Source: Hirudinaria manillensis (taxonomy: Eukaryota; Annelida; Clitellata; Hirudinida; Hirudinidae). Taken from it: a DNA stretch of 64,000 bases. Position numbers and translations under genes: made by a program. Below are positions 44,329-64,000 of the stretch, in pieces. Each line of letters opens with the position of its first letter. Position 1 is the stretch's first letter. The notes under the pieces were generated by a model. That model had not been told where the DNA came from and did not search any database. It saw only the letters and a program-made list of their open reading frames with translations. Location of the stretch: positions 4,434,001 through 4,498,000 of the forward strand of contig CM067531.1 of NCBI GenBank assembly GCA_034509925.1, given 5' to 3'.

Positions 44329-47300
44329 ATGCCGCCGACCTCAACCGATAAAGGTAAATATTACAAGAAAAATTAAAAATTATATTAAATATTAAAATAA
44401 CTAGTAAATTTCAACAATTCTCAATCAAACAAAAAATGCGCGTTAAATTAAAGTTAGAAATTAATTATATCAAGTAAATATTAATATTCAGAATCTTTTT
44501 AATAGTACCACTATAATGCACCGATGTTGGAACAAATAACCTAACGTAAACAATTACATATAACTTGTATAATAATAATAATAACAGTTCCGTTGTAAAA
44601 CCGAACAGCACACCTAATTAATCCAGACACATTTCTTAAAAAGTATCTAAAATGCGTGATTTCGAAAAAATAGAAGAAGAAACAATAGAATTTCTACTCG
44701 ACCTGAAGAGAGCATCCCCCGACCACATACAAGGGTTAATTGATGATAGTCCATCTTTAGCACGTAGATTTAAAGACATCCATGTTGTCTTTAGTGTCTG
44801 GCAACATACCCCGTTAAAATTTAAGAACGGCATCTTAGGGAACAATTTTCTTAATTTACTCGTTGGACTTTCGACGTACGAAGTTATATCTGATATAGAA
44901 GAAATATTGATGGTCTTATTCGATTTGGTGTCTGTATACGGTCGCGTCGACTTTAAGAGACTCAAGATCTTAGAACAAAGTGGTATCGTGAAGGCTCTTA
45001 TCAAGATAATGGATCATGAAACGGATAACGGACTTGTCAAATGCGTAATGAATGAAGCAACCTGCGAAATCACTGTAGCACACATTATTTCTGAATTTTT
45101 GCCTGCAGTATCGTATTGTCTGTGTTACCAAACTTTGAATGACATTGGCATGGGAATTTTATTGGCTGGTAGTCATGCTGCAAATTCAGACCATCTCATT
45201 TCCACTCTCGAGAGAATATTTCCTCTAATTTACGAATTGTGCACGGGTTCCAAACCGCTGTTCGTGCATCAGGTTCTTTTGTTGAAATGTATATACTGGG
45301 CAAACAGTTTAGATGTGCTGTCTAACTTTGTACAAATTGAGAACCTTTTGCTATTCGTAAAAGATTTGGTCTTGTCGGTAAGTGAGGAAAATACCATGAT
45401 TGGTTTGGCGCTCATGAAAACCTTAATAGACAAACATGTGAGATCATTTCAAAGCACAAAACTCTTCCAAGTCTTACATAACAACTCGAATGTCGAGTTG
45501 CTCTTGGATGACGACAAATGGGGATGGGTGGAAGACATGTGGGCAAGGTCTATAACATTTTGGGTAGACGGATACCAAGAAATGATTTCTATCCAGACAA
45601 ACCTTCAATTCCGTATAAGTAAGATGAATACAATGATCCAATATTTTCTCCCGGAAAAGAACGATTCTATGGATCTTTGCTCAATGTATGATTTGAGATA
45701 CGCTCGCTTGTCATCATCTTTGGCATTACTCTTGAATTTGCCGAAAAACATGCCTTTCAATGAGCCTCATATACTCCAAAGAATGGTTGAGCTGTCAAAT
45801 GGAATCGAAAACTTTAAAACTCTTGTCAATTCACTTGTTCGAACACTCGATTTTATCCTAATAGATCAGGGTTTCGTTATTTATATCGACGATATGGATG
45901 GTAAAGACTGTTGGAATTGGTCACCGGAGTCAGAAAAGACAGTCAGCATGGGATTATGCATTTCGGCATCAATGAACAGAGTTCTCGGTTTGTCAAATTC
46001 GCCAAATGAACTGCAAACGAACCCGCTGGTCCAAGCTCTGAGACTGTTATCAATTTATCACGAGGTAAATGAAAATTGGGGGATGATTTTTGGCCTTGTG
46101 ACAACCGAAAAGCTGATCGATAGAAATCATTTCGTCAGTAAAAATTTTCAAATGGTTTACCTTAATATGATCAGTGAGAAAAAGTTCAAAAATTTCACCA
46201 ATATATTGGCATTAATTAACAAGATGGCAGATCATTATCCATTTTTATTGTCTTATGAGGTGCGTGAAAATTTGTTCTCTCTGGACGTAGAAACTCGACT
46301 TTATAATTACTTTAGCTCTGGTGAAGAAGACTCAGTAGATGTTCCCAGGAGGGATCTGGCTAATTTTGTTTCCGACAACCTTAATTTGTTTAATACTCCG
46401 AAATCGTTGACTCGGAAAATAAAATTCGAAGGAGAAATCGCAACCGGTCTTGGTCCTGTGAAAGAATTTTACACAGAGTTCTCTCGAGATTGTCAAAGAT
46501 ATGAATTGGACGTATGGATGGGCAATCCAGTTAACAGCACCAACGGAGCGACGTATGTTCACTCACCTGAAGGTTTATTTCCTAAGCCATGCTCTTCAAC
46601 AAGGTCCCAAGATATGATGGAAGCCGTCGGGGTTATTATAGCAAAATCACTAGCAATTGGTGTGAGACTCGACATTAATTTCAGCAGTGCATTCTACAAG
46701 ACCCTAATGGGTACGATTACAGGAATGCAATATCTTTCACTTGGTGATCTAAAACATGTTATTCCCTGCTTCAAATTTGTGATAAGTTTAGTTAGAACAA
46801 TGAAAGAGAAATGGAGCATTAACAATAACGAATCTCTAACTTATGAGGAGCGCGCAGTTGCAATATCAAAATTGCAATGCGATGGATGCTCTTTTGAAGA
46901 TTTGTGTATCAATTTCACTCTTCCTGGATTCCCATCCGTGGAAATGAAGGAAGGTGGCGAAAATATTCTTTTGACCGTTCATAATGTGGAAGAATATTTG
47001 CAGTTATTGATCTGGTGGCTACTTCACAAAGGTCCTGAGGCCAGTTTCAAACGACTCAAGGATGGATTTAACCGTTTTTTTCCAGTGCAGTTTTTAAATC
47101 GATTCTATTTCGACGAACTCGATCAACTAATTTGTGGCATTCGGAAAGAACAGTGGACCGTTGAATATCTCAGAGATAATTGCATTTTGGACGATGGACT
47201 TTCTGTGGATACTCCGGTCGTTCAACATCTGTTTGAAGTTCTCTCGTCGCTGACTGCCTCTGATCATGAACATTTTGTTCAATTCGTTACAAGTAGTCCA

Positions 47301-47507
47301 AGGTTACCCTGTGGAGGTCTGAAAAGTTTGACACCAAGACTTGCAATCAAAATCAGGGAGCGTGATGGAGATCCTGATCAATATTTCCCTTCATCCTGGA
47401 CATGTTTCAACGCTTTGGTTATAAATCGTTACAGCTGTAAGGTAGTTCTTGAAGAACGGCTTCTCTTTGCTATTAGAGAAGGGGCAAATTCTTTCGGATT
47501 TGCTTAA
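44329..47507 (+). CDS. TRIP12/UFD4-like HECT E3 ubiquitin ligase, shortened
   Basis: A tiny first exon 44329-44353 (MPPTSTDK, donor GTAAAT) joins in phase to 44644-47507, giving about 962 aa; ATG 44652 would give 951 aa. The C-terminal 400 residues are a HECT domain of the TRIP12 type: EGEIATGLGPVKEFY, FTLPGFPSVE, VEEYLQLLIWW, SPRLPCGG, and the catalytic Cys in SSWTCFN, 33 residues from the end. The N-terminal half looks helical, perhaps ARM-like, with no WWE domain seen. Human TRIP12 is about twice as long. These enzymes form a Cys-ubiquitin thioester and act in ubiquitin-fusion degradation. The 2.86-kb uninterrupted coding exon is unlike the other genes here, which suggests a retrocopy that later gained a 5' intron. 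Confidence 0.9.
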
Positions 47508-48281: not shown

Positions 48282-49950
48282 TGTAATAACCCGGGGTCCT
48301 CAAACTAATTATGGAAGTCAGGTTTATTGAAGGTGTTCAAATGGCTTGGAAGATATTCCATGATCAATTGCCTAGGTCTTGGAACCTGTTGTTTCTCTCA
48401 CTCTCGCTCTCCCTCTTTTGTAGATTTTAGTAAAAAGTAACAAATGTTCTTGATTTGAGTAAAAAGTAACAAATTTTAACATATTCGTTAAAATATTGCA
48501 ATTCTTATCCCCTTTTTAGTTCATTTGACACTGACAAATAAAATAGTATTTTCTAAATTTTTATAAATTACTTTTTATTATTGTCAAATCACTCTAGAAT
48601 GTCTTTACTTTCGTGTAACTTCTGCTGTCAGTTTGGCTCATTTTTTCAATCTCTGGAAAATGGACCTTGATGAGAATCAGAAAGCTAAGCACCTGGATAG
48701 TGATTTTGAGTAATATTGCGATGTCCTTTCCTGTGGAAAGATGGATGAAACAGTATTTCTACGGAAATAAGACAAATTTCCAAAGTTGGCGGCAGAGCCT
48801 ATTTACGGGGTTTATTATATTTTAAAAAGCAATAATCTGCCGGCGTGCCTAATGTTTCCATGTAGAAAAATTGGCCCAGCCATACGAACATTTATAAATA
48901 TATTCGAGTATATTATACTTTCTCGTGTAGATTTTATTCCAAGGAAACACGTTTGATGTACGATGAGATAAAACAAAAATACATTATTATAGAAATGTTA
49001 TTATAGACTTAATGAGATTGATAATGTTAATAGTTGATGCCATTGATATTATTATCATTCAACGGTATTTTATTGATCTTAAAATCGGATGCCTCCAAGA
49101 CTCCAGAAAATTAAGTTAAAAAATGATTTTTTAAACGCGTTTAAATCTATTAAATAATTAACTAAATTGTATAAGTCACATCTAGTGAGAGATGCCTCAG
49201 TTGTTTGAGTTTACATGGTTGCATTATATATCTTATGATTTCCAGGGCCAGTCTGTCTAGCGGAATCCTGCGCTTCCTTAAGACTGACCCTATGAGTTTA
49301 TTTTGTATTTTAAGTTCATTTGTTTCATTGTGTTATGTACATAATTGTTTGATTAATATTGTACATGTTCAATTTGCTATTTGTTCTTTCAGTTGCTTTG
49401 ATACATTAATAAACTCATAAACTCAAAAAAACAAAAACTCAAAAACTATCTTGATAACATTTTCCAAATAAATTTAAATATGCGACATGTTGCAAAATTT
49501 CAACCAACCAAAGCTTTGTAACGGCATACGGCTTGCAGTAAAACATTAAGGAGCAATAAGTACTAGAAGAAATAATCTCGACGAGACAAATGAAATGTGA
49601 AGATATCTTTATTTCTCGCACTCCTACGACTCCAACAGATGTGCCATTTCAATTTAACTTTACAATTCCCAATTCTATTGGCATTTGCAAACATAAAAAA
49701 AACATGGACAGGCACAATCTTTAGAACTGCATGGTTTAGATTTAGGCACGGACTGCTTCTCGCAATTACATGTTGAGTTTTCTAAAATCGGCACGCCTGA
49801 TTATGTCTACATTTATACAGAGAACGAAAAAGCTTATAATAATGTAACCCTCAAGCATTGTGAAATTGTAAAAATAAACATATTAGAAAATATGTGCTAA
49901 ATTTCTTTTTTTTTTTTATAAATTAATCAGCTTGAGCCACAGCAACGCAA
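48282..49950. other. Intergenic between mobile-element remnant and RING array
   Basis: No gene recognised. TGTAATAACCCGGGG at about 48282 could be the start of an LTR adjoining the remnant. A 3' LINE-like fragment is noted separately at 49195-49440. Confidence 0.4.
49195..49440 (+). mobile_element. Possible 3' end of a non-LTR retrotransposon
   Basis: An open segment (RASLSSGILRFLKTDPM) is followed by a T-rich 3' tail ending in tandem ATAAACTC/AAAACTC units, a layout common at LINE 3' ends. Only this short piece is present. Confidence 0.3.
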
Positions 49951-50112
49951 ATCACGAAAGCAAGCACTGGTATATTTATTTCATGGGGCACGTAATTGTT
50001 ATTTAAAAAATGCTAATGGAAACGAGTATCTTTCTCTCGTGATAATTCTCCTTCAGCATTACAATCGGTAAGATATTCACTTTAATATCAGACGATCAGG
50101 ATGCCGTAAAGC

Positions 50113-50475
50113 TCAAGATCGTTCTCGATATCGGGATCCTCTTCGGCTTCCATGCATGCTGTCCAAAATGGAAAGAAATCGGATCAATCGGATGCTTTCC
50201 AACTCGTCAGCAATCGAGTTATGGTTCACGTCTTTCGACTGGACTTTCAGTACGCTATGAGATTGATCCTCTTTGAAGTCATAGAATATTTCAGAATATT
50301 GCCTCTTGCAAAGGGGACAACTGGGATTCACTTCGGACCACTTCTGTATGCATTCGAAACAGAAACTGTGCTTGCACACGTTCGTCGTGCTCATGTTATT
50401 GATTTCACCCAAGCATATGACGCACGGATTCTCGGGAATGTCATCGCTCGATATGTCTTGTTGTGTATTTGACAT
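50113..50475 (-). CDS. RING-finger gene copy 1, divergent edge copy with altered C-terminus
   Basis: A 120-aa ORF. Residues 1-84, including the whole RING, are identical to the other copies, but everything after KDVN is different: HNSIADELESIRLI, then a basic end SRRGSRYRERS. Nucleotide comparison shows that the original acidic tail is still partly readable in another frame (ENDLELYGILIV then stop), so the tail has been frameshifted. The acidic patch and hydrophobic VLIV end of the other copies are lost. It has its own AATAAA (minus strand, 49975-49980). Confidence 0.85.
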   Translation of the reverse strand: MSNTQQDISSDDIPENPCVICLGEINNMSTTNVCKHSFCFECIQKWSEVNPSCPLCKRQYSEIFYDFKEDQSHSVLKVQSKDVNHNSIADELESIRLIRFLSILDSMHGSRRGSRYRERS

Positions 50476-50941
50476 TTTCTTTGATTACGAAGTACTTTAC
50501 ACTTGCTCTAGAAACGATGGACGACGTATGTTTATGACGTTAACAGACATTTAACCTTTTGCCCGTGCCTTTCAGAGGGAAAAGATACTGATAAATACGA
50601 AAAAATAATTTTTTTAATTACGTTTAAAAAATAATTTGTTTAAAAAATAATATTTTAAAAAATATTTGTTTATAATTCATTTTTTAAGCATTCTGGATGT
50701 TATTTTACACTATTATCAAGTCCTGAAATTTCGAATGTCCTTTTAAGGCCGGCCGCAGGAATGGATGAGTTGGAAAAGTTTATGAAGCATTTAACATTAA
50801 TAAAAACAAATCTCGTAATAATGCACTGGTATATTTATTTTATGGGGCACGTAATTGTTATTAAGGAAAAATCTAATGGAAACGGATATCTTTCTTTCGT
50901 GATCATTCTTCTTCTGCATTCCGATCGGTGAGATATTTAGT

Positions 50942-51334
50942 TTAATATCGGACGATCAGGACGGCGTAAACCTCGTTCTCGTCATCCGAATCCTCTTCGT
51001 CGTCATCTCCGGCTTGCATGCTTTCCAAACTGGCAAGAATTCGGTTCACAATGCCTTCCAAATCGTCAGCACTCTCGCTCTCGTTCACGTCTTTCGACTG
51101 GACTTTCAGTACGCTATGAGATTGATCCTCTTTGAAGTCATAGAATATTTCAGAATATTGCCTCTTGCAAAGGGGACAACTGGGATTCACTTCGGACCAC
51201 TTCTGTATGCATTCGAAACAGAAACTGTGCTTGCACACGTTCGTCGTGCTCATGTTATTGATTTCACCCAAGCATATGACGCACGGATTCTCGGGAATGT
51301 CATCGCTCGATATGTCTTGTTGTGTATTTGACAT
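50942..51334 (-). CDS. RING-finger gene copy 2 (TOPORS-like C3HC4 RING, acidic/SIM-like tail)
   Basis: A 130-aa intronless ORF with ATG in the context AAAGAAAATG. The RING is C18-x2-C21-x12-C34-x-H36-x2-C39-x2-C42-x10-C53-x2-C56 (C3HC4). The CKHSFCFECIQKW and CPLCKRQYSEIFYDF segments are closest to TOPORS-type RINGs, whose CPLCKQPF-x2-I segment has the same layout. After the RING comes a 30-residue linker, a helix-like part, an acidic run DDDEEDSDDENE and the end VYAVLIVRY. Such a protein would act as an E3 ligase taking ubiquitin from an E2; the VLIV next to acidic residues suggests SUMO binding. The spacer upstream of this copy (51440-51515) has decayed into long A and T runs, which shortens the distance to copy 3. 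Confidence 0.93.
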   Translation of the reverse strand: MSNTQQDISSDDIPENPCVICLGEINNMSTTNVCKHSFCFECIQKWSEVNPSCPLCKRQYSEIFYDFKEDQSHSVLKVQSKDVNESESADDLEGIVNRILASLESMQAGDDDEEDSDDENEVYAVLIVRY

Positions 51335-51782
51335 TTTCTTTGATTACGAAGTACTTTACACTTGCTCTAGAAACGATGGACGACGTATGTTTATGACGTT
51401 AACAGACATTTAACCTTTTGCCCGTGCCTTTCAGAAGGGAAAAAGATACTGAAAAAAAAAAAAATAATTTTTTTAATTTTTTTAAAAAAAAATAAAAAAA
51501 AAAAAAAATTTTAAAATTCATTTTTTAAGCATTCTGGATGTTATTTTACACTATTATCAAGTCCTGAAATTTCGAATGTCCTTTTAAGGCCGGCCGCAGG
51601 AATGGATGAGTTGGAAAAGTTTATGAAGCATTTAACATTAATAAAAACAAATCTCGTAATAATGCACTGGTATATTTATTTTATGGGGCACGTAATTGTT
51701 ATTAAGAAAAAATCTAATGGAAACGGACATCTTTCTTTCGTGATCATTCTTCTTCTGCATTCCGATCGGTGAGATATTTAGT

Positions 51783-52175
51783 TTAATATCGGACGATCAG
51801 GACGGCGTAAACCTCGTTCTCGTCATCCGAATCCTCTTCGTCGTCATCTCCGGCTTGCATGCTTTCCAAACTGGCAAGAATTCGGTTCACAATGCCTTCC
51901 AAATCGTCAGCACTCTCGCTCTCGTTCACGTCTTTCGACTGGACTTTCAGTACGCTATGAGATTGATCCTCTTTGAAGTCATAGAATATTTCAGAATATT
52001 GCCTCTTGCAAAGGGGACAACTGGGATTCACTTCGGACCACTTCTGTATGCATTCGAAACAGAAACTGTGCTTGCACACGTTCGTCGTGCTCATGTTATT
52101 GATTTCACCCAAGCATATGACGCACGGATTCTCGGGAATGTCATCGCTCGATATGTCTTGTTGTGTATTTGACAT
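51783..52175 (-). CDS. RING-finger gene copy 3
   Basis: Protein identical to copy 2. The 3' flank has AAGAAAAAATC in place of AAGGAAAAATC, and a single GGACATC for GGATATC at 51725, seen in no other copy. Confidence 0.93.
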   Translation of the reverse strand: MSNTQQDISSDDIPENPCVICLGEINNMSTTNVCKHSFCFECIQKWSEVNPSCPLCKRQYSEIFYDFKEDQSHSVLKVQSKDVNESESADDLEGIVNRILASLESMQAGDDDEEDSDDENEVYAVLIVRY

Positions 52176-52648
52176 TTTCTTTGATTACGAAGTACTTTAC
52201 ACTTGCTCTAGAAACGATGGACGACGTATGTTTATGACGTTAACAGACATTTAACCCTTTGCCCGTGCCTTTCAGAAGGGAAAAAGATACTGAATAAAAA
52301 ATACGAAAAAATAATTTTTTTAATTACGTTTAAAAAAATAATTTGTTTAAAAAATAATATTTTAAAAAATATTTGTTTATAATTCATTTTTTAAGCATTC
52401 TGGATGTTATTTTACACTATTATCAAGTCCTGAAATTTCGAATGTCCTTTTAAGGCCGGCCGCAGGAATGGATGAGTTGGAAAAGTTTATGAAGCATTTA
52501 ACATTAATAAAAACAAATCTCGTAATAATGCACTGGTATATTTATTTTATGGGGCACGTAATTGTTATTAAGGAAAAATCTAATGGAAACGGATATCTTT
52601 CTTTCGTGATCATTCTTCTTCTGCATTCCGATCGGTGAGATATTTAGT

Positions 52649-53041
52649 TTAATATCGGACGATCAGGACGGCGTAAACCTCGTTCTCGTCATCCGAATCC
52701 TCTTCGTCGTCATCTCCGGCTTGCATGCTTTCCAAACTGGCAAGAATTCGGTTCACAATGCCTTCCAAATCGTCAGCACTCTCGCTCTCGTTCACGTCTT
52801 TCGACTGGACTTTCAGTACGCTATGAGATTGATCCTCTTTGAAGTCATAGAATATTTCAGAATATTGCCTCTTGCAAAGGGGACAACTGGGATTCACTTC
52901 GGACCACTTCTGTATGCATTCGAAACAGAAACTGTGCTTGCACACGTTCGTCGTGCTCATGTTATTGATTTCACCCAAGCATATGACGCACGGATTCTCG
53001 GGAATGTCATCGCTCGATATGTCTTGTTGTGTATTTGACAT
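52649..53041 (-). CDS. RING-finger gene copy 4
   Basis: Protein identical to copy 2; stop-to-stop distance from copy 3 is 866 bp. Flanks carry the majority variants. Confidence 0.93.
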   Translation of the reverse strand: MSNTQQDISSDDIPENPCVICLGEINNMSTTNVCKHSFCFECIQKWSEVNPSCPLCKRQYSEIFYDFKEDQSHSVLKVQSKDVNESESADDLEGIVNRILASLESMQAGDDDEEDSDDENEVYAVLIVRY

Positions 53042-53514
53042 TTTCTTTGATTACGAAGTACTTTACACTTGCTCTAGAAACGATGGACGACGTATGTTTA
53101 TGACGTTAACAGACATTTAACCTTTTGCCCGTGCCTTTCAGAAGGGAAAAAGATACTGAATAAAAAATACGAAAAAATAATTTTTTTAATTACGTTTAAA
53201 AAAATAATTTGTTTAAAAAATAATATTTTAAAAAATATTTGTTTATAATTCATTTTTTAAGCATTCTGGATGTTATTTTACACTATTATCAAGTCCTGAA
53301 ATTTCGAATGTCCTTTTAAGGCCGGCCGCAGGAATGGATGAGTTGGAAAAGTTTATGAAACATTTAACATTAATAAAAACAAATCTCGTAATAATGCACT
53401 GGTATATTTATTTTATGGGGCACGTAATTGTTATTAAGGAAAAATCTAATGGAAACGGATATCTTTCTTTCGTGATCATTCTTCTTCTGCATTCCGATCG
53501 GTGAGATATTTAGT

Positions 53515-53907
53515 TTAATATCGGACGATCAGGACGGCGTAAACCTCGTTCTCGTCATCCGAATCCTCTTCGTCGTCATCTCCGGCTTGCATGCTTTCCA
53601 AACTGGCAAGAATTCGGTTCACAATGCCTTCCAAATCGTCAGCACTCTCGCTCTCGTTCACGTCTTTCGACTGGACTTTCAGTACGCTATGAGATTGATC
53701 CTCTTTGAAGTCATAGAATATTTCAGAATATTGCCTCTTGCAAAGGGGACAACTGGGATTCACTTCGGACCACTTCTGTATGCATTCGAAACAGAAACTG
53801 TGCTTGCACACGTTCGTCGTGCTCATGTTATTGATTTCACCCAAGCATATGACGCACGGATTCTCGGGAATGTCATCGCTCGATATGTCTTGTTGTGTAT
53901 TTGACAT
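53515..53907 (-). CDS. RING-finger gene copy 5
   Basis: Protein identical to copy 2. The 3' flank carries ATGAAACAT for ATGAAGCAT near 53356, a variant shared only with copy 14. The upstream flank has one extra C (AACCCTTTTGCC). Confidence 0.93.
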   Translation of the reverse strand: MSNTQQDISSDDIPENPCVICLGEINNMSTTNVCKHSFCFECIQKWSEVNPSCPLCKRQYSEIFYDFKEDQSHSVLKVQSKDVNESESADDLEGIVNRILASLESMQAGDDDEEDSDDENEVYAVLIVRY

Positions 53908-54381
53908 TTTCTTTGATTACGAAGTACTTTACACTTGCTCTAGAAACGATGGACGACGTATGTTTATGACGTTAACAGACATTTAACCCTTTTGCCCGTG
54001 CCTTTCAGAAGGGAAAAAGATACTGAATAAAAAATACGAAAAAATAATTTTTTTAATTACGTTTAAAAAAATAATTTGTTTAAAAAATAATATTTTAAAA
54101 AATATTTGTTTATAATTCATTTTTTAAGCATTCTGGATGTTATTTTACACTATTATCAAGTCCTGAAATTTCGAATGTCCTTTTAAGGCCGGCCGCAGGA
54201 ATGGATGAGTTGGAAAAGTTTATGAAGCATTTAACATTAATAAAAACAAATCTCGTAATAATGCACTGGTATATTTATTTTATGGGGCACGTAATTGTTA
54301 TTAAGGAAAAATCTAATGGAAACGGATATCTTTCTTTCGTGATCATTCTTCTTCTGCATTCCGATCGGTGAGATATTTAGT

Positions 54382-54774
54382 TTAATATCGGACGATCAGG
54401 ACGGCGTAAACCTCGTTCTCGTCATCCGAATCCTCTTCGTCGTCATCTCCGGCTTGCATGCTTTCCAAACTGGCAAGAATTCGGTTCACAATGCCTTCCA
54501 AATCGTCAGCACTCTCGCTCTCGTTCACGTCTTTCGACTGGACTTTCAGTACGCTATGAGATTGATCCTCTTTGAAGTCATAGAATATTTCAGAATATTG
54601 CCTCTTGCAAAGGGGACAACTGGGATTCACTTCGGACCACTTCTGTATGCATTCGAAACAGAAACTGTGCTTGCACACGTTCGTCGTGCTCATGTTATTG
54701 ATTTCACCCAAGCATATGACGCACGGATTCTCGGGAATGTCATCGCTCGATATGTCTTGTTGTGTATTTGACAT
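54382..54774 (-). CDS. RING-finger gene copy 6
   Basis: Protein identical to copy 2. The upstream spacer has one extra A in the ACGTTTAAAAAAAATAA tract. Confidence 0.93.
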   Translation of the reverse strand: MSNTQQDISSDDIPENPCVICLGEINNMSTTNVCKHSFCFECIQKWSEVNPSCPLCKRQYSEIFYDFKEDQSHSVLKVQSKDVNESESADDLEGIVNRILASLESMQAGDDDEEDSDDENEVYAVLIVRY

Positions 54775-55248
54775 TTTCTTTGATTACGAAGTACTTTACA
54801 CTTGCTCTAGAAACGATGGACGACGTATGTTTATGACGTTAACAGACATTTAACCTTTTGCCCGTGCCTTTCAGAAGGGAAAAAGATACTGAATAAAAAA
54901 TACGAAAAAATAATTTTTTTAATTACGTTTAAAAAAAATAATTTGTTTAAAAAATAATATTTTAAAAAATATTTGTTTATAATTCATTTTTTAAGCATTC
55001 TGGATGTTATTTTACACTATTATCAAGTCCTGAAATTTCGAATGTCCTTTTAAGGCCGGCCGCAGGAATGGATGAGTTGGAAAAGTTTATGAAGCATTTA
55101 ACATTAATAAAAACAAATCTCGTAATAATGCACTGGTATATTTATTTTATGGGGCACGTAATTGTTATTAAGAAAAAATCTAATGGAAACGGATATCTTT
55201 CTTTCGTGATCATTCTTCTTCTGCATTCCGATCGGTGAGATATTTAGT

Positions 55249-55641
55249 TTAATATCGGACGATCAGGACGGCGTAAACCTCGTTCTCGTCATCCGAATCC
55301 TCTTCGTCGTCATCTCCGGCTTGCATGCTTTCCAAACTGGCAAGAATTCGGTTCACAATGCCTTCCAAATCGTCAGCACTCTCGCTCTCGTTCACGTCTT
55401 TCGACTGGACTTTCAGTACGCTATGAGATTGATCCTCTTTGAAGTCATAGAATATTTCAGAATATTGCCTCTTGCAAAGGGGACAACTGGGATTCACTTC
55501 GGACCACTTCTGTATGCATTCGAAACAGAAACTGTGCTTGCACACGTTCGTCGTGCTCATGTTATTGATTTCACCCAAGCATATGACGCACGGATTCTCG
55601 GGAATGTCATCGCTCGATATGTCTTGTTGTGTATTTGACAT
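55249..55641 (-). CDS. RING-finger gene copy 7
   Basis: Protein identical to copy 2. The 3' flank has the AAGAAAAAATC variant shared with copies 3, 13 and 14. Confidence 0.93.
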   Translation of the reverse strand: MSNTQQDISSDDIPENPCVICLGEINNMSTTNVCKHSFCFECIQKWSEVNPSCPLCKRQYSEIFYDFKEDQSHSVLKVQSKDVNESESADDLEGIVNRILASLESMQAGDDDEEDSDDENEVYAVLIVRY

Positions 55642-56114
55642 TTTCTTTGATTACGAAGTACTTTACACTTGCTCTAGAAACGATGGACGACGTATGTTTA
55701 TGACGTTAACAGACATTTAACCTTTTGCCCGTGCCTTTCAGAAGGGAAAAAGATACTGAATAAAAAATACGAAAAAATAATTTTTTTAATTACGTTTAAA
55801 AAAATAATTTGTTTAAAAAATAATATTTTAAAAAATATTTGTTTATAATTCATTTTTTAAGCATTCTGGATGTTATTTTACACTATTATCAAGTCCTGAA
55901 ATTTCGAATGTCCTTTTAAGGCCGGCCGCAGGAATGGATGAGTTGGAAAAGTTTATGAAGCATTTAACATTAATAAAAACAAATCTCGTAATAATGCACT
56001 GGTATATTTATTTTATGGGGCACGTAATTGTTATTAAGGAAAAATCTAATGGAAACGGATATCTTTCTTTCGTGATCATTCTTCTTCTGCATTCCGATCG
56101 GTGAGATATTTAGT

Positions 56115-56507
56115 TTAATATCGGACGATCAGGACGGCGTAAACCTCGTTCTCGTCATCCGAATCCTCTTCGTCGTCATCTCCGGCTTGCATGCTTTCCA
56201 AACTGGCAAGAATTCGGTTCACAATGCCTTCCAAATCGTCAGCACTCTCGCTCTCGTTCACGTCTTTCGACTGGACTTTCAGTACGCTATGAGATTGATC
56301 CTCTTTGAAGTCATAGAATATTTCAGAATATTGCCTCTTGCAAAGGGGACAACTGGGATTCACTTCGGACCACTTCTGTATGCATTCGAAACAGAAACTG
56401 TGCTTGCACACGTTCGTCGTGCTCATGTTATTGATTTCACCCAAGCATATGACGCACGGATTCTCGGGAATGTCATCGCTCGATATGTCTTGTTGTGTAT
56501 TTGACAT
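56115..56507 (-). CDS. RING-finger gene copy 8
   Basis: Protein identical to copy 2, majority variants in both flanks. Confidence 0.93.
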   Translation of the reverse strand: MSNTQQDISSDDIPENPCVICLGEINNMSTTNVCKHSFCFECIQKWSEVNPSCPLCKRQYSEIFYDFKEDQSHSVLKVQSKDVNESESADDLEGIVNRILASLESMQAGDDDEEDSDDENEVYAVLIVRY

Positions 56508-56980
56508 TTTCTTTGATTACGAAGTACTTTACACTTGCTCTAGAAACGATGGACGACGTATGTTTATGACGTTAACAGACATTTAACCTTTTGCCCGTGC
56601 CTTTCAGAAGGGAAAAAGATACTGAATAAAAAATACGAAAAAATAATTTTTTTAATTACGTTTAAAAAAATAATTTGTTTAAAAAATAATATTTTAAAAA
56701 ATATTTGTTTATAATTCATTTTTTAAGCATTCTGGATGTTATTTTACACTATTATCAAGTCCTGAAATTTCGAATGTCCTTTTAAGGCCGGCCGCAGGAA
56801 TGGATGAGTTGGAAAAGTTTATGAAGCATTTAACATTAATAAAAACAAATCTCGTAATAATGCACTGGTATATTTATTTTATGGGGCACGTAATTGTTAT
56901 TAAGGAAAAATCTAATGGAAACGGATATCTTTCTTTCGTGATCATTCTTCTTCTGCATTCCGATCGGTGAGATATTTAGT

Positions 56981-57373
56981 TTAATATCGGACGATCAGGA
57001 CGGCGTAAACCTCGTTCTCGTCATCCGAATCCTCTTCGTCGTCATCTCCGGCTTGCATGCTTTCCAAACTGGCAAGAATTCGGTTCACAATGCCTTCCAA
57101 ATCGTCAGCACTCTCGCTCTCGTTCACGTCTTTCGACTGGACTTTCAGTACGCTATGAGATTGATCCTCTTTGAAGTCATAGAATATTTCAGAATATTGC
57201 CTCTTGCAAAGGGGACAACTGGGATTCACTTCGGACCACTTCTGTATGCATTCGAAACAGAAACTGTGCTTGCACACGTTCGTCGTGCTCATGTTATTGA
57301 TTTCACCCAAGCATATGACGCACGGATTCTCGGGAATGTCATCGCTCGATATGTCTTGTTGTGTATTTGACAT
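56981..57373 (-). CDS. RING-finger gene copy 9
   Basis: Protein identical to copy 2, majority variants in both flanks; 866 bp from copy 8. Confidence 0.93.
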   Translation of the reverse strand: MSNTQQDISSDDIPENPCVICLGEINNMSTTNVCKHSFCFECIQKWSEVNPSCPLCKRQYSEIFYDFKEDQSHSVLKVQSKDVNESESADDLEGIVNRILASLESMQAGDDDEEDSDDENEVYAVLIVRY

Positions 57374-57846
57374 TTTCTTTGATTACGAAGTACTTTACAC
57401 TTGCTCTAGAAACGATGGACGACGTATGTTTATGACGTTAACAGACATTTAACCTTTTGCCCGTGCCTTTCAGAAGGGAAAAAGATACTGAATAAAAAAT
57501 ACGAAAAAATAATTTTTTTAATTACGTTTAAAAAAATAATTTGTTTAAAAAATAATATTTTAAAAAATATTTGTTTATAATTCATTTTTTAAGCATTCTG
57601 GATGTTATTTTACACTATTATCAAGTCCTGAAATTTCGAATGTCCTTTTAAGGCCGGCCGCAGGAATGGATGAGTTGGAAAAGTTTATGAAGCATTTAAC
57701 ATTAATAAAAACAAATCTCGTAATAATGCACTGGTATATTTATTTTATGGGGCACGTAATTGTTATTAAGGAAAAATCTAATGGAAACGGATATCTTTCT
57801 TTCGTGATCATTCTTCTTCTGCATTCCGATCGGTGAGATATTTAGT

Positions 57847-58239
57847 TTAATATCGGACGATCAGGACGGCGTAAACCTCGTTCTCGTCATCCGAATCCTC
57901 TTCGTCGTCATCTCCGGCTTGCATGCTTTCCAAACTGGCAAGAATTCGGTTCACAATGCCTTCCAAATCGTCAGCACTCGCGCTCTCGTTCACGTCTTTC
58001 GACTGGACTTTCAGTACGCTATGAGATTGATCCTCTTTGAAGTCATAGAATATTTCAGAATATTGCCTCTTGCAAAGGGGACAACTGGGATTCACTTCGG
58101 ACCACTTCTGTATGCATTCGAAACAGAAACTGTGCTTGCACACGTTCGTCGTGCTCATGTTATTGATTTCACCCAAGCATATGACGCACGGATTCTCGGG
58201 AATGTCATCGCTCGATATGTCTTGTTGTGTATTTGACAT
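57847..58239 (-). CDS. RING-finger gene copy 10, Glu87Ala
   Basis: The only full-length copy with a protein change: NESESADD becomes NESASADD (GAG to GCG in the coding strand) in the linker after the RING. The upstream flank has TTTAAACC, an extra A shared with copies 11 and 16. Confidence 0.93.
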   Translation of the reverse strand: MSNTQQDISSDDIPENPCVICLGEINNMSTTNVCKHSFCFECIQKWSEVNPSCPLCKRQYSEIFYDFKEDQSHSVLKVQSKDVNESASADDLEGIVNRILASLESMQAGDDDEEDSDDENEVYAVLIVRY

Positions 58240-58713
58240 TTTCTTTGATTACGAAGTACTTTACACTTGCTCTAGAAACGATGGACGACGTATGTTTATG
58301 ACGTTAACAGACATTTAAACCTTTTGCCCGTGCCTTTCAGAAGGGAAAAAGATACTGAATAAAAAATACGAAAAAATAATTTTTTTAATTACGTTTAAAA
58401 AAATAATTTGTTTAAAAAATAATATTTTAAAAAATATTTGTTTATAATTCATTTTTTAAGCATTCTGGATGTTATTTTACACTATTATCAAGTCCTGAAA
58501 TTTCGAATGTCCTTTTAAGGCCGGCCGCAGGAATGGATGAGTTGGAAAAGTTTATGAAGCATTTAACATTAATAAAAACAAATCTCGTAATAATGCACTG
58601 GTATATTTATTTTATGGGGCACGTAATTGTTATTAAGGAAAAATCTAATGGAAACGGATATCTTTCTTTCGTGATCATTCTTCTTCTGCATTCCGATCGG
58701 TGAGATATTTAGT

Positions 58714-59106
58714 TTAATATCGGACGATCAGGACGGCGTAAACCTCGTTCTCGTCATCCGAATCCTCTTCGTCGTCATCTCCGGCTTGCATGCTTTCCAA
58801 ACTGGCAAGAATTCGGTTCACAATGCCTTCCAAATCGTCAGCACTCTCGCTCTCGTTCACGTCTTTCGACTGGACTTTCAGTACGCTATGAGATTGATCC
58901 TCTTTGAAGTCATAGAATATTTCAGAATATTGCCTCTTGCAAAGGGGACAACTGGGATTCACTTCGGACCACTTCTGTATGCATTCGAAACAGAAACTGT
59001 GCTTGCACACGTTCGTCGTGCTCATGTTATTGATTTCACCCAAGCATATGACGCACGGATTCTCGGGAATGTCATCGCTCGATATGTCTTGTTGTGTATT
59101 TGACAT
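58714..59106 (-). CDS. RING-finger gene copy 11
   Basis: Protein identical to copy 2. Shares the TTTAAACC upstream variant with its neighbour copy 10. Confidence 0.93.
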   Translation of the reverse strand: MSNTQQDISSDDIPENPCVICLGEINNMSTTNVCKHSFCFECIQKWSEVNPSCPLCKRQYSEIFYDFKEDQSHSVLKVQSKDVNESESADDLEGIVNRILASLESMQAGDDDEEDSDDENEVYAVLIVRY

Positions 59107-59580
59107 TTTCTTTGATTACGAAGTACTTTACACTTGCTCTAGAAACGATGGACGACGTATGTTTATGACGTTAACAGACATTTAAACCTTTTGCCCGTGC
59201 CTTTCAGAAGGGAAAAAGATACTGAATAAAAAATACGAAAAAATAATTTTTTTAATTACGTTTAAAAAAATAATTTGTTTAAAAAATAATATTTTAAAAA
59301 ATATTTGTTTATAATTCATTTTTTAAGCATTCTGGATGTTATTTTACACTATTATCAAGTCCTGAAATTTCGAATGTCCTTTTAAGGCCGGCCGCAGGAA
59401 TGGATGAGTTGGAAAAGTTTATGAAGCATTTAACATTAATAAAAACAAATCTCGTAATAATGCACTGGTATATTTATTTTATGGGGCACGTAATTGTTAT
59501 TAAGGAAAAATCTAATGGAAACGGATATCTTTCTTTCGTGATCATTCTTCTTCTGCATTCCGATCGGTGAGATATTTAGT

Positions 59581-59973
59581 TTAATATCGGACGATCAGGA
59601 CGGCGTAAACCTCGTTCTCGTCATCCGAATCCTCTTCGTCGTCATCTCCGGCTTGCATGCTTTCCAAACTGGCAAGAATTCGGTTCACAATGCCTTCCAA
59701 ATCGTCAGCACTCTCGCTCTCGTTCACGTCTTTCGACTGGACTTTCAGTACGCTATGAGATTGATCCTCTTTGAAGTCATAGAATATTTCAGAATATTGC
59801 CTCTTGCAAAGGGGACAACTGGGATTCACTTCGGACCACTTCTGTATGCATTCGAAACAGAAACTGTGCTTGCACACGTTCGTCGTGCTCATGTTATTGA
59901 TTTCACCCAAGCATATGACGCACGGATTCTCGGGAATGTCATCGCTCGATATGTCTTGTTGTGTATTTGACAT
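59581..59973 (-). CDS. RING-finger gene copy 12
   Basis: Protein identical to copy 2, majority flanks. Confidence 0.93.
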   Translation of the reverse strand: MSNTQQDISSDDIPENPCVICLGEINNMSTTNVCKHSFCFECIQKWSEVNPSCPLCKRQYSEIFYDFKEDQSHSVLKVQSKDVNESESADDLEGIVNRILASLESMQAGDDDEEDSDDENEVYAVLIVRY

Positions 59974-60446
59974 TTTCTTTGATTACGAAGTACTTTACAC
60001 TTGCTCTAGAAACGATGGACGACGTATGTTTATGACGTTAACAGACATTTAACCTTTTGCCCGTGCCTTTCAGAAGGGAAAAAGATACTGAATAAAAAAT
60101 ACGAAAAAATAATTTTTTTAATTACGTTTAAAAAAATAATTTGTTTAAAAAATAATATTTTAAAAAATATTTGTTTATAATTCATTTTTTAAGCATTCTG
60201 GATGTTATTTTACACTATTATCAAGTCCTGAAATTTCGAATGTCCTTTTAAGGCCGGCCGCAGGAATGGATGAGTTGGAAAAGTTTATGAAGCATTTAAC
60301 ATTAATAAAAACAAATCTCGTAATAATGCACTGGTATATTTATTTTATGGGGCACGTAATTGTTATTAAGAAAAAATCTAATGGAAACGGATATCTTTCT
60401 TTCGTGATCATTCTTCTTCTGCATTCCGATCGGTGAGATATTTAGT

Positions 60447-60839
60447 TTAATATCGGACGATCAGGACGGCGTAAACCTCGTTCTCGTCATCCGAATCCTC
60501 TTCGTCGTCATCTCCGGCTTGCATGCTTTCCAAACTGGCAAGAATTCGGTTCACAATGCCTTCCAAATCGTCAGCACTCTCGCTCTCGTTCACGTCTTTC
60601 GACTGGACTTTCAGTACGCTATGAGATTGATCCTCTTTGAAGTCATAGAATATTTCAGAATATTGCCTCTTGCAAAGGGGACAACTGGGATTCACTTCGG
60701 ACCACTTCTGTATGCATTCGAAACAGAAACTGTGCTTGCACACGTTCGTCGTGCTCATGTTATTGATTTCACCCAAGCATATGACGCACGGATTCTCGGG
60801 AATGTCATCGCTCGATATGTCTTGTTGTGTATTTGACAT
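60447..60839 (-). CDS. RING-finger gene copy 13
   Basis: Protein identical to copy 2. The 3' flank has AAGAAAAAATC; upstream it has a private CAGAATGG for CAGAAGGG at 60940. Confidence 0.93.
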   Translation of the reverse strand: MSNTQQDISSDDIPENPCVICLGEINNMSTTNVCKHSFCFECIQKWSEVNPSCPLCKRQYSEIFYDFKEDQSHSVLKVQSKDVNESESADDLEGIVNRILASLESMQAGDDDEEDSDDENEVYAVLIVRY

Positions 60840-61312
60840 TTTCTTTGATTACGAAGTACTTTACACTTGCTCTAGAAACGATGGACGACGTATGTTTATG
60901 ACGTTAACAGACATTTAACCTTTTGCCCGTGCCTTTCAGAATGGAAAAAGATACTGAATAAAAAATACGAAAAAATAATTTTTTTAATTACGTTTAAAAA
61001 AATAATTTGTTTAAAAAATAATATTTTAAAAAATATTTGTTTATAATTCATTTTTTAAGCATTCTGGATGTTATTTTACACTATTATCAAGTCCTGAAAT
61101 TTCGAATGTCCTTTTAAGGCCGGCCGCAGGAATGGATGAGTTGGAAAAGTTTATGAAACATTTAACATTAATAAAAACAAATCTCGTAATAATGCACTGG
61201 TATATTTATTTTATGGGGCACGTAATTGTTATTAAGAAAAAATCTAATGGAAACGGATATCTTTCTTTCGTGATCATTCTTCTTCTGCATTCCGATCGGT
61301 GAGATATTTAGT

Positions 61313-61705
61313 TTAATATCGGACGATCAGGACGGCGTAAACCTCGTTCTCGTCATCCGAATCCTCTTCGTCGTCATCTCCGGCTTGCATGCTTTCCAAA
61401 CTGGCAAGAATTCGGTTCACAATGCCTTCCAAATCGTCAGCACTCTCGCTCTCGTTCACGTCTTTCGACTGGACTTTCAGTACGCTATGAGATTGATCCT
61501 CTTTGAAGTCATAGAATATTTCAGAATATTGCCTCTTGCAAAGGGGACAACTGGGATTCACTTCGGACCACTTCTGTATGCATTCGAAACAGAAACTGTG
61601 CTTGCACACGTTCGTCGTGCTCATGTTATTGATTTCACCCAAGCATATGACGCACGGATTCTCGGGAATGTCATCGCTCGATATGTCTTGTTGTGTATTT
61701 GACAT
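61313..61705 (-). CDS. RING-finger gene copy 14
   Basis: Protein identical to copy 2. Carries both the ATGAAACAT variant (shared with copy 5) and AAGAAAAAATC (shared with copies 3, 7 and 13); upstream it lacks one T (AACCTTTGCC). Confidence 0.93.
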   Translation of the reverse strand: MSNTQQDISSDDIPENPCVICLGEINNMSTTNVCKHSFCFECIQKWSEVNPSCPLCKRQYSEIFYDFKEDQSHSVLKVQSKDVNESESADDLEGIVNRILASLESMQAGDDDEEDSDDENEVYAVLIVRY

Positions 61706-62177
61706 TTTCTTTGATTACGAAGTACTTTACACTTGCTCTAGAAACGATGGACGACGTATGTTTATGACGTTAACAGACATTTAACCTTTGCCCGTGCCTT
61801 TCAGAAGGGAAAAAGATACTGAATAAAAAATACGAAAAAATAATTTTTTTAATTACGTTTAAAAAAATAATTTGTTTAAAAAATAATATTTTAAAAAATA
61901 TTTGTTTATAATTCATTTTTTAAGCATTCTGGATGTTATTTTACACTATTATCAAGTCCTGAAATTTCGAATGTCCTTTTAAGGCCGGCCGCAGGAATGG
62001 ATGAGTTGGAAAAGTTTATGAAGCATTTAACATTAATAAAAACAAATCTCGTAATAATGCACTGGTATATTTATTTTATGGGGCACGTAATTGTTATTAA
62101 GGAAAAATCTAATGGAAACGGATATCTTTCTTTCGTGATCATTCTTCTTCTGCATTCCGATCGGTGAGATATTTAGT

Positions 62178-62570
62178 TTAATATCGGACGATCAGGACGG
62201 CGTAAACCTCGTTCTCGTCATCCGAATCCTCTTCGTCGTCATCTCCGGCTTGCATGCTTTCCAAACTGGCAAGAATTCGGTTCACAATGCCTTCCAAATC
62301 GTCAGCACTCTCGCTCTCGTTCACGTCTTTCGACTGGACTTTCAGTACGCTATGAGATTGATCCTCTTTGAAGTCATAGAATATTTCAGAATATTGCCTC
62401 TTGCAAAGGGGACAACTGGGATTCACTTCGGACCACTTCTGTATGCATTCGAAACAGAAACTGTGCTTGCACACGTTCGTCGTGCTCATGTTATTGATTT
62501 CACCCAAGCATATGACGCACGGATTCTCGGGAATGTCATCGCTCGATATGTCTTGTTGTGTATTTGACAT
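62178..62570 (-). CDS. RING-finger gene copy 15
   Basis: Protein identical to copy 2; 865 bp from copy 14 because of the missing T. Confidence 0.93.
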   Translation of the reverse strand: MSNTQQDISSDDIPENPCVICLGEINNMSTTNVCKHSFCFECIQKWSEVNPSCPLCKRQYSEIFYDFKEDQSHSVLKVQSKDVNESESADDLEGIVNRILASLESMQAGDDDEEDSDDENEVYAVLIVRY

Positions 62571-63043
62571 TTTCTTTGATTACGAAGTACTTTACACTTG
62601 CTCTAGAAACGATGGACGACGTATGTTTATGACGTTAACAGACATTTAACCTTTTGCCCGTGCCTTTCAGAAGGGAAAAAGATACTGAATAAAAAATACG
62701 AAAAAATAATTTTTTTAATTACGTTTAAAAAAATAATTTGTTTAAAAAATAATATTTTAAAAAATATTTGTTTATAATTCATTTTTTAAGCATTCTGGAT
62801 GTTATTTTACACTATTATCAAGTCCTGAAATTTCGAATGTCCTTTTAAGGCCGGCCGCAGGAATGGATGAGTTGGAAAAGTTTATGAAGCATTTAACATT
62901 AATAAAAACAAATCTCGTAATAATGCACTGGTATATTTATTTTATGGGGCACGTAATTGTTATTAAGGAAAAATCTAATGGAAACGGATATCTTTCTTTC
63001 GTGATCATTCTTCTTCTGCATTCCGATCGGTGAGATATTTAGT

Positions 63044-63436
63044 TTAATATCGGACGATCAGGACGGCGTAAACCTCGTTCTCGTCATCCGAATCCTCTTC
63101 GTCGTCATCTCCGGCTTGCATGCTTTCCAAACTGGCAAGAATTCGGTTCACAATGCCTTCCAAATCGTCAGCACTCTCGCTCTCGTTCACGTCTTTCGAC
63201 TGGACTTTCAGTACGCTATGAGATTGATCCTCTTTGAAGTCATAGAATATTTCAGAATATTGCCTCTTGCAAAGGGGACAACTGGGATTCACTTCGGACC
63301 ACTTCTGTATGCATTCGAAACAGAAACTGTGCTTGCACACGTTCGTCGTGCTCATGTTATTGATTTCACCCAAGCATATGACGCACGGATTCTCGGGAAT
63401 GTCATCGCTCGATATGTCTTGTTGTGTATTTGACAT
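63044..63436 (-). CDS. RING-finger gene copy 16
   Basis: Protein identical to copy 2. Carries the TTTAAACC upstream variant also seen in copies 10 and 11. Confidence 0.93.
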   Translation of the reverse strand: MSNTQQDISSDDIPENPCVICLGEINNMSTTNVCKHSFCFECIQKWSEVNPSCPLCKRQYSEIFYDFKEDQSHSVLKVQSKDVNESESADDLEGIVNRILASLESMQAGDDDEEDSDDENEVYAVLIVRY

Positions 63437-63910
63437 TTTCTTTGATTACGAAGTACTTTACACTTGCTCTAGAAACGATGGACGACGTATGTTTATGACG
63501 TTAACAGACATTTAAACCTTTTGCCCGTGCCTTTCAGAAGGGAAAAAGATACTGAATAAAAAATACGAAAAAATAATTTTTTTAATTACGTTTAAAAAAA
63601 TAATTTGTTTAAAAAATAATATTTTAAAAAATATTTGTTTATAATTCATTTTTTAAGCATTCTGGATGTTATTTTACACTATTATCAAGTCCTGAAATTT
63701 CGAATGTCCTTTTAAGGCCGGCCGCAGGAATGGATGAGTTGGAAAAGTTTATGAAGCATTTAACATTAATAAAAACAAATCTCGTAATAATGCACTGGTA
63801 TATTTATTTTATGGGGCACGTAATTGTTATTAAGGAAAAATCTAATGGAAACGGATATCTTTCTTTCGTGATCATTCTTCTTCTGCATTCCGATCGGTGA
63901 GATATTTAGT

Positions 63911-64000
63911 TTAATATCGGACGATCAGGACGGCGTAAACCTCGTTCTCGTCATCCGAATCCTCTTCGTCGTCATCTCCGGCTTGCATGCTTTCCAAACT
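63911..64000 (-). CDS. RING-finger gene copy 17, cut by window end
   Basis: Only the last 29 codons and the stop are visible, from LESMQ through the acidic tail; the RING lies beyond the window. Confidence 0.85.
   Translation of the reverse strand, partial: SLESMQAGDDDEEDSDDENEVYAVLIVRY

Follow-up and report, generated by a model that had tools for sequence, protein, structure and literature searches.

A homogenized tandem array of about 75 small RING-finger genes, possibly TOPORS-like, in the leech Hirudinaria manillensis

Where protein genes form large arrays of identical sequence, they usually provide bulk products or are a sign of genetic conflict. Why, then, does the leech Hirudinaria manillensis carry a long array of near-identical genes for a small predicted E3 ubiquitin ligase, and what does the uniformity of the copies mean? 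We addressed these questions on a 64,000-nt stretch of contig C6 (the window) and its flanks, in an assembly of 148.4 Mb and 23 contigs. An arthropod or mite origin of the DNA was considered and rejected: the mitochondrial genes observed, those other than COX1 identified by inspection, are all on one strand and follow an annelid-like order. Among large identical arrays, one made of about 75 copies of a gene for a predicted regulatory E3 would be an outlier.

One unit was used as BLASTN query against the window with flanks (164 kb). The search matched 76 segments, which represent 75 units since one unit is split by an insert. The array occupies 66.5 kb (C6:4483948-4550444) and consists of 72 full units, one edge copy, one split unit and one partial end, all head-to-tail on the minus strand. 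Its part inside the window lies at 49948..64000 (minus strand, from the same segmentation), and it runs on for 52.4 kb past the window to C6:4550444. A sequence-only reading of the window had proposed at least 17 near-identical copies and an array continuing beyond the window. Both proposals hold, with 16 start codons inside the window, a 17th copy running off its end and about 75 units in all; the assembly thus contains many more than one or two units. The unit of about 866 bp with an uninterrupted ORF and AATAAA, also described in that reading, was recovered as well: 64 of the 72 full units measure 866 or 867 bp, seven measure 864-865 bp and one measures 841 bp.

The array genes in the window are all on the minus strand. 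Identical intact proteins of 130 aa are encoded by 14 of the 16 copies with a start codon, namely unit u75 at 50942..51334 (the 841-bp unit, whose AT-rich upstream stretch is shortened), the reference copy at 51783..52175, and the copies at 52649..53041, 53515..53907, 54382..54774, 55249..55641, 56115..56507, 56981..57373, 58714..59106, 59581..59973, 60447..60839, 61313..61705, 62178..62570 and 63044..63436. The copy at 57847..58239 carries E87A and is the single deviant that had been noticed among 15 complete copies. At the window end only the 3′ part of the next copy is present (63911..64000; C6:4497914-4498303 plus stop). The remaining start codon belongs to the edge copy, a 120-aa ORF with an altered tail at 50113..50475. 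Its coding part is identical to that of the other copies through about codon 84 and then diverges abruptly in a changed frame, a sharp junction such as a recombination breakpoint would leave. Across the whole array there are 74 start codons, giving 65 identical 130-aa proteins, four with E87A, two with F64L and three broken ones. A synonymous variant, Y65Y, also occurs. The intact ORF is kept in 71 of the 75 units, the four broken units being the hybrid edge copy, a frameshifted unit, one interrupted by a truncated LINE, and the partial end.

The array protein matched six Pfam RING models over cut-off, which bears out the assignment as RING ubiquitin-ligase genes at the level of the domain, E3 activity being predicted; matches to NCBIfam were below cut-off only. 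In the reference copy the RING finger (residues 18-56) lies at 52008..52124 on the minus strand, with Pfam zf-C3HC4 at residues 18-56 and zf-RING_2 at 17-57. It is of the C3HC4 type, and all eight zinc-ligand columns are invariant over 10 aligned sequences. The best sequence match in the PDB was a RING2/BMI-1 chimera (E 5.3e-12), followed by the herpesvirus RING 1chc (E 8.9e-11). We prefer a TOPORS-type RING to the herpesvirus RING on the ground that, in this genome, the nearest longer protein is TOPORS-like. An AlphaFold model built on a 6-row alignment had a pLDDT of 42.6 and was uninformative. A viral or phage origin was considered and rejected, as the array peptides had no match in phage records or in viral_contigs, the latter searched with exact peptide patterns that reach close relatives only.

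Apart from the ORFs of contig C4 with one or two RINGs, the best match in the genome was an ORF at C8:6596197-6596400 (40%, E 5.7e-14). Compared with nine proteins that share a precomputed PF26084 annotation, which we take to be the PWI-like domain of Topors, the C8 ORF aligned across its RING and the following region with an hhalign probability of 100 (E 5.7e-45). The source records do not name any of these nine proteins Topors. Our Pfam search did not list PF26084 for P0009, for P0025 (a bird protein named Topors-like) or for the C8 ORF, so the label rests on the precomputed annotation. Against P0025, the hhalign probability was 97.3 for the C8 ORF and 99.5 for the nine PF26084 proteins. By these profile comparisons, the long gene on C8 is TOPORS-like.

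The kinship of the array protein itself is more distant. The profile of the array family matched P0025 at E 4.4e-6, and the profile also matched five fungal RING proteins, some at lower E-values. Identity between the array protein and a Topors-like protein was 27% over 77 residues. A tree of the RINGs had poor support, with one of 24 inner branches starred; P0011 and all eight intended outgroup rows were dropped from it, as the RING pattern could not be located in them. Apart from members of its own small family, TOPORS-type RINGs appear to be closest to the array RING. The array protein resembles TOPORS in the RING and the segment behind it, EIFYDFKED in the array corresponding to QIFHNIRS in the C8 ORF, as well as in acidic stretches. 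In contrast, its length is 130 aa compared with 707, it exists in about 75 copies, and its sequence stops soon after the RING. The PWI-like region that follows the RING in the C8 ORF and in other TOPORS-like proteins is absent from it, and so is the long body. Consequently, we regard the array protein as a relative of TOPORS and not as TOPORS itself.

Human TOPORS is described as a SUMO-targeted ubiquitin ligase (STUbL) (PMC11402782). The array protein ends in an acidic tail (residues 109-130, closing with VLIVRY; 51786..51851 in the reference copy, minus strand) that may resemble a SUMO-interacting motif (SIM). This acidic tail with VLIV is resembled in two of five close relatives, P0016 and P0017, where the acidic stretch is followed by VLTI or VLTV. 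As to the others, P0001 has VYELPI, P0014 stops before the tail and P0015 differs. The SIM pattern is also unspecific, matching VICL inside the RING as well as VLKV. The array protein is comparable to RNF4-type STUbLs in its small size, its RING and a possible SIM, but the SIM-like tail is single and lies behind the RING, unlike in RNF4, and SUMO binding is putative.

The uniformity of the array extends well beyond the coding part. With u75 left out, the mean pairwise difference was 0.22% substitutions over the whole unit, and 22 variable substitutions in all were found over 71 full units. Spacers were nearly as homogeneous as the ORF, and variable-site density was similar at spacer sites (17/473) and synonymous sites (3/86). 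There were 30 distinct sequences among the 72 full units. On the right, most of the outer units (u2-u17) differed from the majority by 2-6 substitutions, and on the left u74 differed by 3 and u75 by 12, while the middle units, with 0-2, were less diverged than most outer ones. Adjacent units were closer to each other (1.39 substitutions) than units 41-75 positions apart (3.06). The tandem units share one orientation and have homogenized spacers, as in a concertedly evolving array. The likeness to rRNA or histone arrays that had been drawn from the window is apt with regard to orientation, homogenized spacers and more diverged outer units; it ends at the product, here a predicted regulatory E3. 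What is unexpected in this homogenized array is the class of gene.

The sequence-only reading had also offered two alternatives, selection for dose or a very recent expansion. The spacers are almost as uniform as the ORF, so identical proteins are sufficiently explained by recent amplification or concerted evolution, and protein identity alone is no sign of dose selection. Constraint on the ORF was measured on the 71 full units, leaving out u75 and three incomplete or edge units. Variable sites numbered 2 on 304 nonsynonymous sites compared with 20 on 559 synonymous and spacer sites (p 0.006). The depletion gave p 0.012-0.016 when one clustered event was merged or dropped, and p 0.07 against synonymous sites alone. 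This suggests that the ORF is constrained, with a modest signal, and that the array still looks protein-coding.

Our leading reading, with a probability of roughly 40%, is that the array gene encodes a miniature ubiquitin ligase of TOPORS-like type, which may be SUMO-targeted, and that it was tandemly amplified and homogenized. A single-exon, RING-only relative of TOPORS would have been duplicated in tandem, presumably in the H. manillensis lineage, and unequal crossing-over or gene conversion may have expanded and homogenized it to about 75 units, 71 of them intact. Every unit has the appearance of a complete gene, so that a single small E3 could be provided by the array in a high dose. The RING would recruit an E2 as in a TOPORS-like ubiquitin ligase, and the acidic, hydrophobic C-terminal tail might dock on SUMO or another partner, making the protein a mini-STUbL. 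If the copies are expressed, the array offers a natural test of what extreme dosage of an E3, possibly a STUbL, does; if they are silent, it shows cleanly how a coding unit becomes a satellite.

A rival reading, a genic satellite, is almost as probable: the unit may have spread by unequal crossing-over or conversion without any dose benefit, its copies may be silent, and protein identity may be a by-product of young age and homogenization. The scarcity of variable sites and their similar density at spacer and synonymous sites agree with this, as does the occurrence of LINE-split, frameshifted, truncated and edge copies. In addition, the published HiFi assembly is described as polished with short reads, which may flatten repeats. 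On the other hand, the full ORF in 71 of 75 units and the depletion of nonsynonymous variable sites speak against such a satellite, although the latter reaches only p 0.07 against synonymous sites alone. A more ambitious extension of the mini TOPORS-like ligase is that selection for dose built a histone-like array of a minimal SUMO-targeted ligase derived from TOPORS, perhaps for SUMO clearance in the germline or early embryo or for control of selfish elements. An intracellular regulator would then have received a degree of amplification otherwise typical of bulk products; we consider this unlikely.

It is improbable that the copy number is inflated by assembly. When homopolymer lengths are disregarded, a run of 36 consecutive full units shows no difference over about 31 kb, which exceeds the mean HiFi read of 18.73 kb given in the published description. 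However, homopolymer compression itself hides one C/T site beside a T-run, every stretch of eight segments is unique at full sequence (69 of 69), the full units include 30 distinct sequences, and non-array DNA with ORFs joins the array on both sides. A HECT gene flanks it on one side, and beyond its other end lie ORFs identified by inspection as SMC4 and CUL4.

Drosophila Stellate and ampliconic sex-linked families likewise combine a small coding unit with a large uniform tandem array; Stellate differs in encoding another protein and in having a silencer locus. Leeches are hermaphrodites and are not known to have sex chromosomes. In the DNA-level search of the own genome, neither an antisense nor a silencer copy appeared among the matches listed, which covered 9 of the 75 known units and 4 of the 6 first-look candidates and included four short matches outside the array (39-126 bp, on C4 and C1). 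Genetic conflict of the Stellate or Slx/Sly kind, in which an E3 acting at the gamete stage was amplified to serve as driver or suppressor, is the least probable of the explanations even though conflict-driven families are described with a small ORF in a uniform tandem array (PMC10618873, PMC6690552).

Judged by title and start of abstract, no report of the array was found among the literature matches listed, and nothing related among papers on leeches and Topors. In the text available, 'ubiquitin' and 'ring finger' are absent from the main text of the genome paper (PMC10671345), and 'ubiquitin' is absent as a whole word from PMC10087013 and at word start from PMC10887747 and PMC11897028. The genome paper describes gene prediction on a repeat-masked assembly, so the array may have been masked and would be easy to overlook.

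Two short elements recur in the unit. No Rfam family matched the window when gathering thresholds were applied. The AATAAA of the reference copy lies 102 bp past the stop codon (51675..51680, minus strand), and 67 of the 72 full units carry an exact copy of a 17-base context containing it. At 280 bp upstream of the reference ATG (52446..52455, minus strand) lies CCTTAAAAGG, which we take to be CArG-box-like; it is a weak lead as a candidate element and is found in all 72 full units.

A BLASTN comparison of one unit with the window and its flanks (164 kb) gave 76 segments and placed the whole array at C6:4483948-4550444 (C6 being the contig that holds the window). An insert divides one unit into two segments, which leaves 75 units, made up of 72 full ones, a diverged left edge, the split unit and a 240-bp right end. 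The ORF is intact in 71 of the 75 units, and the 74 start codons in the array lead into 65 identical proteins, four E87A variants, two F64L variants and three broken frames. The sequence-only reading had claimed 14 identical copies and a one-residue variant; this was borne out in the window, where 14 identical copies and one E87A variant were found in addition to the edge copy (50113..50475). The large array of a RING-only, TOPORS-like gene, recent or concertedly evolving, is real. The 2.24-kb insert (C6:4540544-4542782) lies opposite to the gene, encodes a reverse-transcriptase domain (RVT_1, E 5e-25) and bears an A-run at its end; named by eye, it is probably a 5′-truncated LINE. A single-exon 951-aa ORF for a HECT-domain ubiquitin ligase adjoins the array (window 44652-47507, plus strand).

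We analysed a genome of 148,429,096 bases in 23 contigs, C6 measuring 11,463,318 bp. The H. manillensis genome paper describes a HiFi and Hi-C assembly of 13 chromosomes and 22 scaffolds, with an N50 of 11.46 Mb and a mitochondrial genome of 15,581 bp; it also mentions short-read polishing, and gene prediction on the repeat-masked genome (PMC10671345). Polishing may have raised the likeness of the units. When homopolymer length was ignored, 36 consecutive full units were identical, while every 8-segment stretch was unique when the full sequence was compared. Given such a run of like units and the polishing, 75 is the copy number of the assembly and may not be exact. Prediction on a masked genome may be why no report of the array was found in the titles and abstract starts of the papers listed or in main-text passages of a few of them.

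The 72 full units comprise 30 distinct sequences, with a mean pairwise difference, excluding the left-end full unit, of 1.89 substitutions per unit (0.22%). Neighbouring units differ by 1.39 substitutions and those 41-75 positions apart by 3.06. Compared with the majority sequence, the right-end units (u2-u17) carry 2-6 substitutions, the left-end unit 12 and the units between 0-3. In the edge copy the coding sequence is identical to that of the array as far as about codon 84, where it diverges abruptly. Unequal crossing-over or conversion would leave such a distance gradient, diverged ends and edge-copy junction. All 72 full units have an exact CC(A/T)6GG box, located 280 bp ahead of their ATG (window 52446-52455 and the equivalent place elsewhere), against a density of 0.06 per kb outside the array; it is a possible regulatory site.

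The ORF is hardly more uniform than the spacers, so identical proteins are by themselves no proof of selection. The constraint count covers 71 full units, excluding the left-end, edge, split and partial units: variable substitutions fell at 2 of about 304 nonsynonymous, 3 of 86 synonymous and 17 of 473 spacer sites. The nonsynonymous deficit has a p of 0.006, or 0.012-0.016 when one unit's cluster of three neighbouring changes is treated as a single change or left out. With synonymous sites as the only comparison, p is 0.07 and the ratio 0.19. Between the array RING and two paralogues on contig C4, dN is 0.31 and 0.36, and dS, near saturation, 3.33 and 1.14. These figures are modest evidence that the array protein has been under selection. 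Our tentative first choice is that the array is a gene battery supplying dose, with a probability of about 0.42; that it is a coding satellite is our second, and nearly as probable.

The array RING scored above the cut-off in six Pfam models. After the array itself, matches in the same genome were RING ORFs of a single exon on C4, of which several carry two RINGs. Such ORFs, with one or two array-like RINGs each, form clusters at C4:494-510 kb and C4:4.22-4.24 Mb, and some have long acidic or N-rich tails. The best match beyond these was an ORF on C8 (40% identity, E 5.7e-14). This ORF is TOPORS-like: over its RING and the region behind, it aligns with nine proteins sharing PF26084 (probability 100), as well as with one from a bird, named Topors-like (probability 97.3). 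Its closest relatives are the database proteins P0002 (75%) and P0003 (72%). For the array protein 21 relatives were found, the five closest being of 114-243 aa. Their clusters stand for 1-4 sequences each, so nothing suggests a similar array in their sources, a weak indication because the records are non-redundant. The RING tree had little support and no outgroup: all eight intended outgroup rows, and the database protein P0011 with them, lacked a match to the RING pattern and dropped out.

The array protein has an acidic tail with the final residues VLIVRY. Comparable acidic stretches occur in the relatives P0017 and P0016, with VLTV and VLTI, respectively; an acidic stretch with a VLIV-like tail was not seen in P0001, P0014 and P0015, three of the five closest relatives compared. 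Human TOPORS is described as combining RING activity and SUMO-interacting motifs in one protein (PMC11402782). With this pairing and the tail, the array protein is a plausible candidate mini-STUbL (SUMO-targeted ubiquitin ligase).

Six more RING ORFs with 315-aa open frames and equal or nearly equal scores lie at C13:2860035-2870401 and C13:2994789, perhaps another recent RING amplification, judged by score. At window 6565-7330, a repetitive stretch has three open plus-strand frames with YVLFCI-type ORFs, which are probably not genes. On contig C23 (15,581 bp) the mitochondrial genes all run in one direction; after cox1, identified by Pfam, genes named by eye are cox2, cox3, nad6 and cob, and further on nad4, nad1, nad3 and nad2, which we take to be the annelid order. 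A COX1 stretch at C9:3026446-3027786 scores the same as the mitochondrial contig; it was either copied into the nucleus very recently or joined in by the assembly.
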